Below the pieces are notes generated by a model. It did not search any database. It was given only the letters and a program-made list of their open reading frames with translations, and was not told the DNA's origin. A stretch of 64,000 nucleotides of DNA, taken from an uncultured Armatimonadota bacterium (lineage in GTDB: Bacteria; Armatimonadota; Fimbriimonadia; Fimbriimonadales; Fimbriimonadaceae). The stretch is taken from contig CAIYMO010000057.1 of the NCBI GenBank assembly GCA_903927345.1, positions 1-64,000 of the forward strand. Direction: 5' to 3'. Position 1 is the stretch's first letter; every line of letters begins with the position of its first letter. Positions 45,832 to 50,944 of the stretch are shown here, one piece after another. Both the position numbers and the translations under genes were made by a program.

Positions 45832-47208
45832 TTACAATCTGCCCTTGGACTTCACATCCAAGTAATACGAAACCAGATCTTTAGCCAAATCTTGTGGTTC
45901 AGAGTCCAGAACATTAAGGTGCGAGGACTGCAACATCGATGCAGCTTGCCGCCGTTCATCGGTCAAAAAGTGGGCAGAAGCGAACCGAAACAGGTCTTCA
46001 TGGCTCTCTGGCTCCTTTCGCAAGATCTCGCGGAACCGAGGATCAGCGATGTTTACCAACAAAGCGAGATGACTCCTTGCCATCGAGCCAAAGCTCTGAA
46101 CAATGTCCCGCGCCATGTCTCGATCCTCTAACCCAGTGAAGTTGACCATTAACGAGCGGCGCTTGTGACGGGCGGCCAAATAGCCAAACGCACGAACGGG
46201 ATCACTCTCCAACGGCTCCGCGACTAAACCATACATCGCGTTAAGAATCACTCCTAACTGCCGCTGACCCTTCTTGGGCGGAACATAGGTGATCACATCG
46301 GCTCCGTAAGCCAGGAAGCCAACATTGTCCCCCGCCGCAATCGCCGACTGAATTAGCATCAAAATCGCGTCCAGAACGAGGTCCAGCTTCCGCACTCCAC
46401 CGACTTCCGCCAGCATGTGCCGTCCGCAGTCCACGCAGATCATCACCGCCTGATTGCGCTCGACCTCATACTGCCGCACAATCAGCTTTCCGCGCCGTGC
46501 CGTAGCGCTCCAGTCGACCTTCCGATAGTCGTCGCCCTCGGCATACTCCCGAAGCGATTCAAACTCCGTCCCCAAGCCGCGCATCTTCGAGATTCGAACC
46601 CCCACCTCTCGAAGTCGGCCCTGCTGGTTCAACAGTGCAAACTCCCTTAGCGCGAGCACGTTGGGATAAACCTTAACTGCTTGAGTCGTCTCGAGTTCAA
46701 CCTGCTTCTGAACAAGTCCGAGAGGACAATCCAACCGCAAAAACGTTCCGCGAATTTCTTCTTGGCCCCGTTCCGGCGGAACCAGCATGTACTCAAAGTG
46801 AAACTTGTTGCCCGGGTTCACTCGGAACCGCTGCTCGTTGCCTTCGCCGTCAAAGGTCGCCGGAACTTCATCGCGAATTTGGCCCGAAACGGCAACTCCG
46901 CTCTCGTTCTCAATTTCGAACATCACCCGATTACGGGCGCGAACCGAAAGCACCGCGTCCATTCGACGTCGAATCCGAATTCCCTCCGCCGATGCCCCGA
47001 AGCGGTAAGTGAGGAAGCAAATGGCACCCAAAATCAGGTTGTAGGCGTACAACATCCAACCCATGCCCACAAGGGTTGCCAGGACGATCAGCGGAGTTCC
47101 CGCCACCACCAGCCACCAAAGACGACGGGTTGGCACCATCACCGAACGAACCACTTTTGGCTCGAAGAAGGAATCCGATTTTCCAAACTCGTTTGGTTCG
47201 CCGCTCAT
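45832..47208 (-). CDS. DUF58 family protein
   Basis: About 458 residues from ATG 47208. The N-terminus has two membrane segments (WWLVVAGTPLIVLATLVGMG, NLILGAICFLTYRF). The DUF58 hallmark follows in VRISKMRGLGTEFESLREYA and YRKVDWSATARRGKLIVRQY, then a VWA-like domain beginning VMICVDCGRHMLAEVGG. DUF58 proteins usually accompany a MoxR ATPase, transglutaminase, SpoIIM and RDD genes. Here RDD is divergent with 19 nt between starts, but no MoxR ATPase is in the window. Confidence 0.85.
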   Translation of the reverse strand: MSGEPNEFGKSDSFFEPKVVRSVMVPTRRLWWLVVAGTPLIVLATLVGMGWMLYAYNLILGAICFLTYRFGASAEGIRIRRRMDAVLSVRARNRVMFEIENESGVAVSGQIRDEVPATFDGEGNEQRFRVNPGNKFHFEYMLVPPERGQEEIRGTFLRLDCPLGLVQKQVELETTQAVKVYPNVLALREFALLNQQGRLREVGVRISKMRGLGTEFESLREYAEGDDYRKVDWSATARRGKLIVRQYEVERNQAVMICVDCGRHMLAEVGGVRKLDLVLDAILMLIQSAIAAGDNVGFLAYGADVITYVPPKKGQRQLGVILNAMYGLVAEPLESDPVRAFGYLAARHKRRSLMVNFTGLEDRDMARDIVQSFGSMARSHLALLVNIADPRFREILRKEPESHEDLFRFASAHFLTDERRQAASMLQSSHLNVLDSEPQDLAKDLVSYYLDVKSKGRL

Positions 47209-47227
47209 TCTCAGTACACTACACGTT

Positions 47228-47983
47228 GTGCCGCTGGAGACTGCCGTCCTCACACCGGAAAAGACCGTTCTAACTTACCGCCTTGCGGGGTTGGGCAGTC
47301 GGTGTTTGGCGAACTTCGTGGATTTTATCATTCTGTTTTTCGCGATCTACGCGCTTCTCACCCTTATTCTGTTGCTGGGCGTATTTACCGAAGGACTGTT
47401 CAGCGGCTTTGCTCTGGGAGTAACCATGTTCATCAGCTCCATGTCCCCGTTCGCCTACTTCATCTTCTGTGAAGGGCTAATGAACGGTGTGACGATCGGC
47501 AAAAAGATGGCAGGCATCCGAGTTCGGATGGCCGACGGAACTCCGATCACCTTTGCTGCCGCCACCGCACGCAACATTCTCCGCGTCGCCGACTTCCTCC
47601 CGGGCTTCTACTTCATTGGCATCGTCTCCATGTTCGTGAATCCGAGGCTTCAACGAGTTGGAGATCTCGTCGCCGGCACAATCGTTGTTCACGAAAACCG
47701 AGTCGGAGAAGCATTCTCCGTCGCACCACACCGCGTCGGGATCCACCCCCTCGAGCATGCCGTCGGCGAGCTCCGAAACATGACCGACGGTCAGTACTAT
47801 GTGCTTCGCCGTTACTGCGACCGATTCCCCGAACTCCCCCGAGAGATCCAGAACCATCTCACTGATTCCGTCTGGGTGCCCATGGCAAAAAACCTTGGCG
47901 TCCAGCTTGACCCAACCATTCATCCGCTCTACCTAGCTGAGGCCACCGTAATGAAATACGGACGTGCCCGAGGAATGCTGTAA
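47228..47983 (+). CDS. RDD family membrane protein
   Basis: About 251 residues from GTG 47228; upstream open frame is antisense to DUF58. The RDD pattern GLGSRCLANFVDFIILFFAI contains the Arg and Asp residues that name the family, and TIGKKMAGIRVRMADG and QRVGDLVAGTIVVHENR complete it. Four membrane segments are likely. The C-terminal 80 residues are soluble. RDD proteins often co-occur with DUF58 and SpoIIM-like genes; function is unknown. Confidence 0.86.
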   Translation: MPLETAVLTPEKTVLTYRLAGLGSRCLANFVDFIILFFAIYALLTLILLLGVFTEGLFSGFALGVTMFISSMSPFAYFIFCEGLMNGVTIGKKMAGIRVRMADGTPITFAAATARNILRVADFLPGFYFIGIVSMFVNPRLQRVGDLVAGTIVVHENRVGEAFSVAPHRVGIHPLEHAVGELRNMTDGQYYVLRRYCDRFPELPREIQNHLTDSVWVPMAKNLGVQLDPTIHPLYLAEATVMKYGRARGML

Positions 47984-48181
47984 ATCGATGGGGATTGTGA
48001 TGTGGAAAGATTGCACAACCTGCGAGAGTGGGGAGAAGCCCATGTTTCGGAAGGGGTTCAACCCCACTTTCCCACACCCTATTTCTGGTGTGATTACACC
48101 AGACTATCCACAAATCCACACTGCTAATAAGAGTAATAACTCTTTCTCAATAAGGATTCTTTTTTAAGAGAGGGGTGTGGA
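47984..48181. other. DnaA-box-rich spacer before recF, origin-like
   Basis: Within 200 nt there are several sequences close to the DnaA box TTATCCACA: CTATCCACA (48104-48112, one mismatch), AAATCCACA (48112-48120), and on the other strand CTTTCCACA (48001-48009) and CAATCCACA (48176-48184). An AT-rich stretch lies at 48120-48166. A perfect palindrome, TCTGGTGT-GATT-ACACCAGA, lies at 48085-48104. This resembles an origin of replication or DnaA-controlled promoter. dnaA and dnaN are not in the window, so function is inferred. Confidence 0.5.
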
Positions 48182-49246
48182 TTGGTTACGCATCTGACCC
48201 TTTTGAACTTCCGGAACTTTGAGCATCTCGATCAACCGATCTCGGCTGGGTTCACGATTCTGGCTGGTGAGAATGCTCAGGGGAAGACGTCGTTTCTTGA
48301 GGCGTTGTACTGGTTATCGACTGCACGACTGTTGCGAGGACAGCGTGACAGTGAGGCTGTGCGCCACGGAGCGGCTGGTTGCACTGCACAGGCCACTCTT
48401 GAGGCGGGGACGACGGTTGCGGGCGCGCTAGAGGTCGGAGCGAGGAAGAAGTTCTTTCTGAACGGGGCAAGTCTTCCTCGAGCTGCCGATATCATGGGGC
48501 GAATCCCCACAGTCTGCATTTCGATGTTCGATCTTTCGATCGTTCAGGGTGATCCCTCGGACCGACGGCTCTTTCTCGATTTAGAACTCTCGGCTCTCTA
48601 TCCCGCCTATCTGCGCCACTTCGCGGCCTATAAACGGGCGCTTGAGCAACGCAACGCCCTCCTCAAAATGGCTCAGGACCGATCGGTTGATCCGTACGCA
48701 TTTGAGGGTTGGGAAGAGCAGCTGGAACTGCATGGCGCTGAGATGCGACGATTCCGCCAGGAGTATTTGACTGCTCTCTCAACTTTAGCGGCCAATGTTC
48801 ACGCTGAGATGGCGAGCAGGGAAGAGGTTCTGTCGCTTCGCTACTTCACAAAAGACTCGGGAGCTTCGCTCGCCCAAACCCGGCACCTCGACATCGCTCG
48901 CGGATCAACCCAGATCGGACCGCACCGCGACGATGTTGAAGTTCTGATCGATGGCTCGGAAGCAAGACTCTTCGGCTCCCAGGGCCAACAGCGCACCGCG
49001 GTGATCTCGCTCAAACTCGCAACTATGGAGGCGTGGAAGGACCTGCTCGGTGTAGCTCCCTTACTTTTGCTCGACGATATGCTCTCCGACCTCGATCCGG
49101 TGCGTCGGGCAAAGTTGTGCGCAGTTGTCAGTTCACGCGCCTCACAGGCCGTCCTGACGTGCACAGAGGCTACTGCTGCCGGAAGCGACATCCTCGATAT
49201 CGCGCAGGTCCTGACCGTGCAAAATGGAACAGTGAGGCGGGCATGA
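48182..49246 (+). CDS. recF: DNA replication and repair protein RecF
   Basis: The 354-residue protein has the RecF/SMC-like ATPase pattern: Walker A GENAQGKTSFLEALYWLST, GSQGQQRTAVISLKLA (signature) and LLLLDDMLSDLDP (Walker B). RecF loads RecA at gaps in replicated DNA. The start is TTG 48182, and this codon lies inside a DnaA-box-like sequence. The stop overlaps the dciA start in an ATGA. Confidence 0.93.
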   Translation: MVTHLTLLNFRNFEHLDQPISAGFTILAGENAQGKTSFLEALYWLSTARLLRGQRDSEAVRHGAAGCTAQATLEAGTTVAGALEVGARKKFFLNGASLPRAADIMGRIPTVCISMFDLSIVQGDPSDRRLFLDLELSALYPAYLRHFAAYKRALEQRNALLKMAQDRSVDPYAFEGWEEQLELHGAEMRRFRQEYLTALSTLAANVHAEMASREEVLSLRYFTKDSGASLAQTRHLDIARGSTQIGPHRDDVEVLIDGSEARLFGSQGQQRTAVISLKLATMEAWKDLLGVAPLLLLDDMLSDLDPVRRAKLCAVVSSRASQAVLTCTEATAAGSDILDIAQVLTVQNGTVRRA

Positions 49247-49656
49247 GGCGTTTTGATCGAATTCTTGGCGACGCCGTGCTTCAGCCAGAGGCTCTTCGGG
49301 CTGCTCGCGCGCTTGGAGTTCTAAAACGCTGGGAAGAAGTCGTTGGTCCTGCCATGGCGGATCGATCTTGGCCCGATCGTTACGATCACGGCAAGGTCTT
49401 CGTGGCCGTTACCGGTTCTGCTTGGGCTCAAGAGCTCCGGATGCAAAAGGAAACCCTCCTCATGCGTCTGCGAGACATGGCGGGCGACAATACGCTGTTC
49501 ATCGACCTCCGGTTCGGTGTCCGTCCCCTCCATCGGCACTATGAACAAGTCATCTCCGAAGATGTCCCCGACGAGTCGCTCCGGGGATTAAGCATCCGAG
49601 AAATCGCCGAAAGGCGACTGAAGAAGTGGCACGATGATTCGACAGATCACAGCTAG
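49243..49656 (+). CDS. dciA: DciA-like helicase-loading protein (DUF721)
   Basis: About 137 residues from ATG 49243. The DUF721 domain is clear from LKRWEEVVGPAMADRSWPDR, GKVFVAVTGSAWAQELRMQK and LLMRLRDMAG. DciA proteins help load the replicative helicase in bacteria without DnaC. It overlaps recF by 4 nt and comEC by 23 nt. Its presence beside recF and the DnaA-box-rich spacer strengthens the replication theme. Confidence 0.82.
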   Translation: MRRFDRILGDAVLQPEALRAARALGVLKRWEEVVGPAMADRSWPDRYDHGKVFVAVTGSAWAQELRMQKETLLMRLRDMAGDNTLFIDLRFGVRPLHRHYEQVISEDVPDESLRGLSIREIAERRLKKWHDDSTDHS

Positions 49657-50944
49657 ACCATTTGTTTGCCTGTTGCTGGGTGTCCTCATCGGTCTCAATC
49701 TGCCATTTTCAACGTGGATCTTTGCGTTAGGAGTAGTGTTTGCTACTATTCTTCGACAGCGGTGGCTTGCTTGGCTATCATTCGGTCTTGTGGCATCGGG
49801 AGTTTTCTTGTTATGGCAACCCACTGTCACGGTATCTCCCGGAAAGTTCTCTGGAGAAATCACATTAACCGGATTCGCTGAGTTCCGACAAGGTCAAACT
49901 CAGGTTCCATTCCGGGGTGGAATGCTAAAAATCCCCGGCCAAGTCGCAGTTGCCGCCGGAGAATCGTGGAATGTGGAAGGCGTCGTTACCGAAGCGAAAA
50001 GCGGCATGATCCGGGCAGAAACCTTCAAATGTTCCCATCGCTCTCTCCTAAGCCCGATCGGCTCGTTCCGAATCTGGGCGATAAACCGTATCAATCAGCT
50101 CTACGGCGAGCGAGATGGCGCCTGGGTCAACGCGCTCACGTTCAACTTCGGCTCGGAGCTCGATAAGGCCGATAAGGCATCACTTGTTCAAAGCGGGACC
50201 TTCCACCTCATCAGTGCGAGCGGCTTGCACGTCTGGGTCTTGGCGCTCTTCAGCCACTTCCTTCTCGTTTCGATGGGCGTTCGAAGGCACGTTCAAATCG
50301 GTATTATCGCCCTGCTTCTCACGGGCTACTGTCTTCTGACCGGGTTCCACCCACCTACCGTCCGATCATCGCTGATGTGGCTCATCATCTCGTGCGCCGA
50401 CCTCGTAAAACGATCCCCCGACGGACTTTCGGCAATCAGCCTCGCCGGAGTTTTGTGGTTAGCTGTCGCTCCTAAGGACGTCTTTTCCCCCTCGTTCCAA
50501 CTCTCCTATGTCGTCACGTCGGCGCTCATCATCTGGTTTGAGAAGCGACGAGAGTTCGCCGAGTGGTGGCGTGGATTGGAAGTCTCTTGCGTGGCCAGTC
50601 TAGCTGCCGAGCCTCTCGGCGCCTGGTGGTTCGGCCGAATCATCTTCATCGGTCCGGTCACAAACATCCTGGTCGAGCTAACCTCGTCGGTCGTCGTCGT
50701 TATGGGCTTCCTCTCGGTGATTCCCGGACTAGGCGAGCTTATCGTCGTCTTCTGCCGCCCGCTGCTTTGGTGGATGCAATGGATCACTGAGCTTGCCGCA
50801 AAGTTCCCATCCGTCGTCCTAGCCCCTCGGAGCTTTTCCCCGCTGATCCTCGTCGGATACTTCTCGCTTCTACTCCTGGTGCTATGGGGTCGACCACCAA
50901 GATCGACCCCGAAAGGCTCAGCTCCGCAGAAGCTCGAGCCTTGA
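49634..50944 (+). CDS. Short ComEC/Rec2-type competence membrane protein
   Basis: The 436-residue protein has many hydrophobic segments and the competence-domain motif LVQSGTFHLISASGLHVWVL together with GFHPPTVRSSLMWLI. It carries a short N-terminal part but lacks the C-terminal metallo-beta-lactamase domain of full-length ComEC (about 750 residues). It could form the DNA uptake channel with a separately encoded nuclease. The 3' end overlaps valS by 27 nt. Confidence 0.84.
   Translation: MIRQITARPFVCLLLGVLIGLNLPFSTWIFALGVVFATILRQRWLAWLSFGLVASGVFLLWQPTVTVSPGKFSGEITLTGFAEFRQGQTQVPFRGGMLKIPGQVAVAAGESWNVEGVVTEAKSGMIRAETFKCSHRSLLSPIGSFRIWAINRINQLYGERDGAWVNALTFNFGSELDKADKASLVQSGTFHLISASGLHVWVLALFSHFLLVSMGVRRHVQIGIIALLLTGYCLLTGFHPPTVRSSLMWLIISCADLVKRSPDGLSAISLAGVLWLAVAPKDVFSPSFQLSYVVTSALIIWFEKRREFAEWWRGLEVSCVASLAAEPLGAWWFGRIIFIGPVTNILVELTSSVVVVMGFLSVIPGLGELIVVFCRPLLWWMQWITELAAKFPSVVLAPRSFSPLILVGYFSLLLLVLWGRPPRSTPKGSAPQKLEP

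Follow-up and report, generated by a model that had tools for sequence, protein, structure and literature searches.

Does the short intergenic region preceding recF and dciA in an uncultured Fimbriimonadaceae bacterium represent the place where its chromosome starts to replicate? The region lies in a stretch of 64,000 nucleotides analysed here as a whole (the window), taken from a 57-contig draft genome (G000) in which dnaA, dnaN and recF are carried by contigs C17, C53 and C57, respectively. By its recF, the nearest named records are metagenome-assembled genomes of Fimbriimonas and Fimbriimonadaceae. The original prediction had proposed a replication origin at this place, and our results support this reading, boxes and adjacent AT-rich module being strongly conserved at recF. 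Neither dnaA nor dnaN, a common though not a defining neighbour of oriC, borders the gap; it does present a box cluster above background, an adjoining AT-rich element and a position conserved among relatives.

Organization of the region upstream of recF

The features of the region are collected in Table 1. Both genes named in the original prediction were recovered by profile searches, and the AT-rich stretch that it mentioned is indeed the richest of the window, with 74% AT and the top rank among all 63,950 50-mers (starts 48118-48122). The palindrome is fully paired as announced; its arms are only partly kept in the close relatives G015 and G018 (three-species alignment). The DnaA-box-like sequences are real as well, but there are five instead of four at up to two mismatches, three of them within one mismatch of TTWTCCACA, and no exact TTATCCACA or TTTTCCACA is found in the window's gap. 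As had been noticed, the recF TTG start (48182) falls inside the last box, which the three-species alignment keeps. The central part has the order of a basal unwinding system (BUS; boxes plus DnaA-trio-like repeats), with two co-directed boxes, 4 bp and then CTA-ATA-AGA-GTA-ATA, the bottom strand of the repeats reading 3'-GAT TAT TCT CAT TAT TGA-5', with two TTATT.

Table 1. Features of the recF upstream region and its neighbouring genes (window coordinates)
Feature	Position	Strand	Remarks
RDD-family gene (PF06271), upstream of the gap	47246..47983	+	start position not fixed
Intergenic gap, candidate oriC	47984..48181		between RDD-family gene and recF; 198 bp
DnaA-box-like CTTTCCACA	48001..48009	-	1 mismatch to TTWTCCACA; conserved in G015 and G018
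GGGGTTCAACCCC, with GGTTCAA element inside	48053..48065		in relatives, the DUE-proximal box follows the element at about 50 bp
DnaA-box-like TTTCCCACA	48068..48076	+	1 mismatch to TTWTCCACA; TTATCCACA in G015, TTTTCCACA in G018
Palindrome TCTGGTGT-gatt-ACACCAGA	48084..48103		arms 48084-48091/48096-48103, 8/8 paired
DUE-proximal DnaA box CTATCCACA, first of tandem pair	48104..48112	+	1 mismatch to TTWTCCACA
Second, weaker tandem box AAATCCACA, directly adjoining	48112..48120	+	2 mismatches to TTATCCACA
AT-rich unwinding-element candidate	48118..48171		window's most AT-rich 50-mers
DnaA-trio-like repeats	48124..48141	-	top strand CTA ATA AGA GTA ATA ACT
DnaA-box-like CAATCCACA	48176..48184	-	2 mismatches to TTATCCACA; overlaps recF TTG start
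recF	48182..49246	+	TIGR00611, 289 bits (cut-off 172)
dciA, helicase operator/loader, directly after recF	49243..49656	+	PF05258, E 6.9e-15

Boxes are not in excess over the whole window (18 found, 20.9 expected). The recF gap holds the sole triple of one-mismatch boxes inside 200 bp in the 64 kb, and one other pair of such boxes exists (16432/16589). The cross-species evidence presented below is far stronger than this single-sequence cluster statistic. An Rfam search over 46500-50000 gave no match, and neither a sigma-70-like promoter (47900-48300) nor a terminator (in the gap) was detected. The single-strand fold reaches a z of -5.8, which is explained by the inverted boxes and the palindrome and is not counted as evidence.

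Conservation of the module in close relatives and across the family

Among G000, G015 and G018, the core at 48106-48147 is identical at 42 of 42 positions and the longer segment 48104-48181 at 73 of 78. Over the recF coding DNA of the same three species, 731 of 1059 positions are identical (69%), with 121 of 353 third positions and a longest identical run of 26 nt.

A recF-like match was present in 59 genomes, from which 50 recF upstreams were taken; that of G008, at a contig end, was left out of the counts. These cover 35 recF upstreams of family f1, 5 of families f3-f5 and 9 of the sister family f2, together with 29 dnaA upstreams and a random background, a box being any sequence with at most one mismatch to TTWTCCACA. 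Per about 330 bp, the f1 recF upstreams contain 2.80 boxes on average, vs 0.052 in 1500 random 330-bp windows, a 54-fold difference. At least two boxes are present in 28 of the 35 f1 upstreams and in 0.27% of the random windows, none of which (0/1500) reaches three. At least one box is present in 33/35 f1, 5/5 f3-f5 and 2/9 f2 recF upstreams. The dnaA upstreams display a weaker excess (mean 0.66 boxes per 430 bp, n=29). The combined pattern box-N12-15-TAAnA occurs in 22 of 35 recF upstreams, in none of the 29 dnaA upstreams and three times in 2.48 Mb of background (both strands).

Many f1 members share a common plan, in which one or two boxes are followed after about 88 bp by a TTTTCCAC-type box, 12-14 bp and a tract of 3-nt periodicity such as TTAATAGTAACAATAG. 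The clade of the window carries a shortened version, with 36 bp instead of about 88 between boxes and the second box filling the space before the tract. The original prediction had named a skew minimum and dnaA far from the site, together with boxes lacking conservation, as signs against an origin. The boxes are conserved; dnaA and dnaN do lie elsewhere wherever positions are comparable, but the dnaA upstreams lack the look of an origin.

Some peculiarities were met in the course of these comparisons. In G009 (G009:C9:41813-42285), the origin-like module lies about 430 bp from recF, vs about 50 elsewhere, as if by an insertion or a bin misassembly. G028 encodes two near-full-length RecF-like proteins (G028:C1:1017950 and G028:C9:2605), 50% and 36% identical to that of the window. 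Finally, a Fimbriimonas-type recF (54% identity) occurs in JADZEW010000015.1, a metagenome-assembled genome record that bears the title 'Methanoregulaceae archaeon' and is probably mislabelled.

Specificity of the motif model

Twenty-six f1 sequences could be aligned as TTTTCCACn-12/14 bp-TAAnAn.AA...AA, and these modules were used to build a sequence-only model from which G000, G015 and G018 were excluded on purpose; G001 and G002 (misaligned), G010, G020, G022 and G009 were also outside it. The model was run on 20 genomes not used in its building, retaining the single best match of each at E<=2. Eight matches were obtained, six of them 46-434 bp upstream of recF (G001, G002, G008, G009, G020 and, from family f5, G044) and two away from it (G040 and G046). 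Twelve of the 20 genomes, including G000, G015 and G018, gave no genome-wide match at this threshold. When the window was searched alone and unfiltered, the module was the best match (48105-48143, 10 bits, E 0.089), while no match passed the default filters over 254 kb.

A possible further conserved element and the sister family

Of 32 aligned origins (31 from f1 and that of G044), 18 have a word of the GGTTCAA/TTGAACC type roughly 50 bp ahead of the DUE-proximal box (-44 to -58), vs 2.7 expected; this excess is overstated, since the motif was picked after viewing the sequences. Three f2 origins carry GAGTTCAAAAT or its variant GAGTTCAGAAT at a constant 60-61 bp before the unwinding-side box. 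No known factor for the GGTTCAA element was identified. A tentative joint reading, which we consider possible but rather doubtful, is that GGTTCAA/GAGTTCAAAAT constitutes a further conserved part of Fimbriimonadales origins, recognized by an unknown protein that bends DNA or acts as a regulator, and that in f1 the TAG trios were replaced by TAA/TTATT-type repeats. By folding the DNA, this protein would bring the upstream boxes onto the repeats that unwind, and the f1 repeats could stand midway between those of B. subtilis and those of E. coli. At the E. coli origin such folding is performed by IHF.

In the sister family, 7 of 9 recF upstreams have no boxes. Of the 34 exact TTATCCACA boxes of G045, 9 lie, together with two near ones, within about 310 bp before recF. 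In G041, G049 and G058 recF is devoid of boxes and a similar box array stands elsewhere. The arrays of G041 and G058 end in TTATCCACA-ATTCCACA-atgac-CTACTACTA and TTATCCACA-TTTCCACA-gtgac-CTACTACTA, respectively. In both, a weaker box follows TTATCCACA and CTACTACTA stands 5 bp further on, an order that matches the layout published for the BUS (PMC8287927); the two arrays carry three perfect GAT repeats, i.e. canonical CTA-CTA-CTA trios.

Strand skew

Cumulative skew was computed as strand-averaged GC3 from 40 sampled stretches in each of G026 and G029 and 20 in G007. In the closed genomes G026 and G029, the minimum lies 78 kb (permutation P 0.0016) and 105 kb (P 0.0054) from recF; the corresponding distances are 366 and 266 kb for dnaA and 1356 and 985 kb for dnaN. 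The cumulative skew of G007 (F. ginsengisoli) is not significant (P 0.52-0.82, 20 stretches), nor is the whole-contig skew of G018 (P 0.30), where the sign change beside recF goes in the wrong direction. In the window's own contig the strand-averaged GC3 skew keeps its negative sign across recF (-0.20 on the left, -0.29 on the right), and in the window alone local drifts dominate, again with no switch at recF. The skew plot suggested with the original prediction thus speaks for an origin near recF in two relatives only, the own clade giving no support.

Around recF, GC3 skew stays between -0.19 and -0.29 over about 70 kb covering both flanks (window 32001-64000 and on to 104 kb of C57). Such strongly negative skew on both sides is unexplained if recF marks the origin. 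A local switch is visible near 16-32 kb of the window. We also tried dif as an independent terminus marker (ATAAT-N6-TTATGTTAA, 2 mismatches); this candidate was dropped, the four weak matches in 8 genomes not exceeding the reversed-pattern control.

Origin or regulatory site?

Boxes before recF could also form a DnaA-responsive promoter or operator (48104-48120 and the start codon) tuning recF-dciA, with no origin involved. The conserved box overlapping the recF start codon fits this idea, and DnaA boxes without AT tract precede both ftsZ genes in the genus, so that DnaA-regulated promoters likely exist there. Regulation has no need, however, of an AT-rich repeat at a fixed distance from a tandem box, which is an unwinding layout, nor does it account for the proximity of the skew minimum to recF in G026 and G029, and the sigma-70-like promoter sought around the gap is missing. 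Moreover, the box array of G041, G049 and G058 stands away from recF, and a module found apart from recF in f2 favours an origin over a mere recF operator or promoter. We thus regard a purely regulatory role as unlikely. The ftsZ-linked cluster itself, with three exact boxes in 47 bp (C4:8941-8987), is the densest exact-box cluster listed in G000 and might be taken for the origin. It has no AT-rich repeat after it and a similar counterpart before the second ftsZ (C30:6526-6555), and relatives differ in the number and type of their boxes, as they would at a regulatory site; of the explanations considered, this one appears to us the most improbable.

The second of the two ftsZ-linked clusters of G000 comprises two exact boxes and a near one, and at least one box (<=1 mismatch) lies within 200 bp upstream of the first ftsZ paralog at 10 of 13 Fimbriimonas-genus loci and of the second at 8 of 9 (own included). 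This distribution suggests that cell division is controlled by DnaA. In Caulobacter, DnaA and ftsZ are reportedly linked.

For F. ginsengisoli, an origin between dnaN and dnaA has been published, on the basis of a GC-skew prediction at 5.13 Mb and of a single exact box, in reverse complement, at 5.20 Mb (PMC4072686). The paper on strain Gsoil 348 considers exact boxes only, notes a jagged skew and places recF at 1,929 kb and dnaN at 5,018 kb (PMC4072686); G007, whose recF and dnaN positions match, is very probably this strain. Its recF gap contains TTATCCACT, TTTTCCACT and TTTTCCCCA before TATAAGGATAACAACAAG, boxes that carry one or two mismatches and were thus missed by an exact-word search. 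Against the dnaN-dnaA location stand the non-significant sampled skew of G007, the position of dnaA and dnaN in G026 and G029, 266-1356 kb away from where the skew has its minimum, and the 29 dnaA upstreams, with a mean of 0.66 boxes and all devoid of the module. This location seems to us highly improbable, and on the best reading of the data a recF-linked origin contradicts the assignment near 5.13 Mb in the type strain. We found no other published origin work on this group beyond PMC4072686; a prediction may exist in subscription papers or DoriC-type databases, which lay outside the scope of our search.

A proposed model for initiation and comparison with known origins

In our view, it is highly probable that the gap before recF-dciA is the chromosomal oriC of a Fimbriimonadaceae bacterium. 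The layout and its conservation, the specificity that it shows within the family for recF upstreams, the f2 counterpart with canonical trios and the closeness of the skew minimum to recF in two closed relatives are observed facts; that DnaA binds and opens this DNA, that the helicase is loaded and that replication starts here is what we infer. DnaA-ATP would occupy the scattered boxes, its decisive binding site being the tandem pair (48104-48120). From there it would load as a filament onto the AT-rich 3-nt repeats of the bottom strand, as in the BUS model (PMC8287927, PMC10721633). The duplex would open within the AT-rich stretch (48118-48171). This would be the entry site of the DnaB helicase, with DciA, the product of a gene 1.1 kb away, presumably assisting in its loading.

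This provides a testable origin for a class of Armatimonadota; the only published assignment that we found for it drew on weak skew and on a search for exact boxes. In this family the origin apparently remained beside recF-dciA while dnaA and dnaN moved off, so that the rule of looking next to dnaA would fail for this group. Of the dnaA-dnaN-recF-dciA-gyrB replication gene cluster, the recF-dciA adjacency persists, dnaA and dnaN having left it.

The BUS has been defined by a box with at most two mismatches and a spacer of at most 16 bp (PMC8287927), and CTATCCACA stands within these limits, 12 bp from TAATAA (11 bp when counted to a first repeat CTA at 48124). The DnaA-trio is given as complementary CTA (PMC8235120), C can stand in for its central A (PMC10721633), and the B. 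subtilis repeats, as well as TTATT as the E. coli motif, are described in PMC10316083. Read as 3'-NAN-5', the window repeats are GAT, TAT, TCT, CAT and TAT, with the central A in four of five and the run broken at the third (TCT), whereas the BUS definition asks for at least three consecutive ones. The region resembles the oriC2/incC-type BUS of B. subtilis in its tandem co-directed boxes, its gap of about 4 bp, its 3-nt repeats and a first repeat 3'-GAT-5'. It differs by the degenerate f1 repeats that follow (TAT, TCT, CAT, TAT) and by a position beside recF-dciA and not between dnaA and dnaN. In the E. coli oriC, R1 and the DUE are arranged as TTATCCACA-14 bp-TAATAAGAG, compared with CTATCCACA-12 bp-TAATAAGAG in the window, a striking likeness. 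Both tracts show TTATT on the bottom strand, twice in the window, while the E. coli gene neighbours, mnmG/mioC, are different. Since TAG-trio and TTATT-like repeats occupy the same place in the origins of two related families, the unwinding motifs of B. subtilis and E. coli become comparable.
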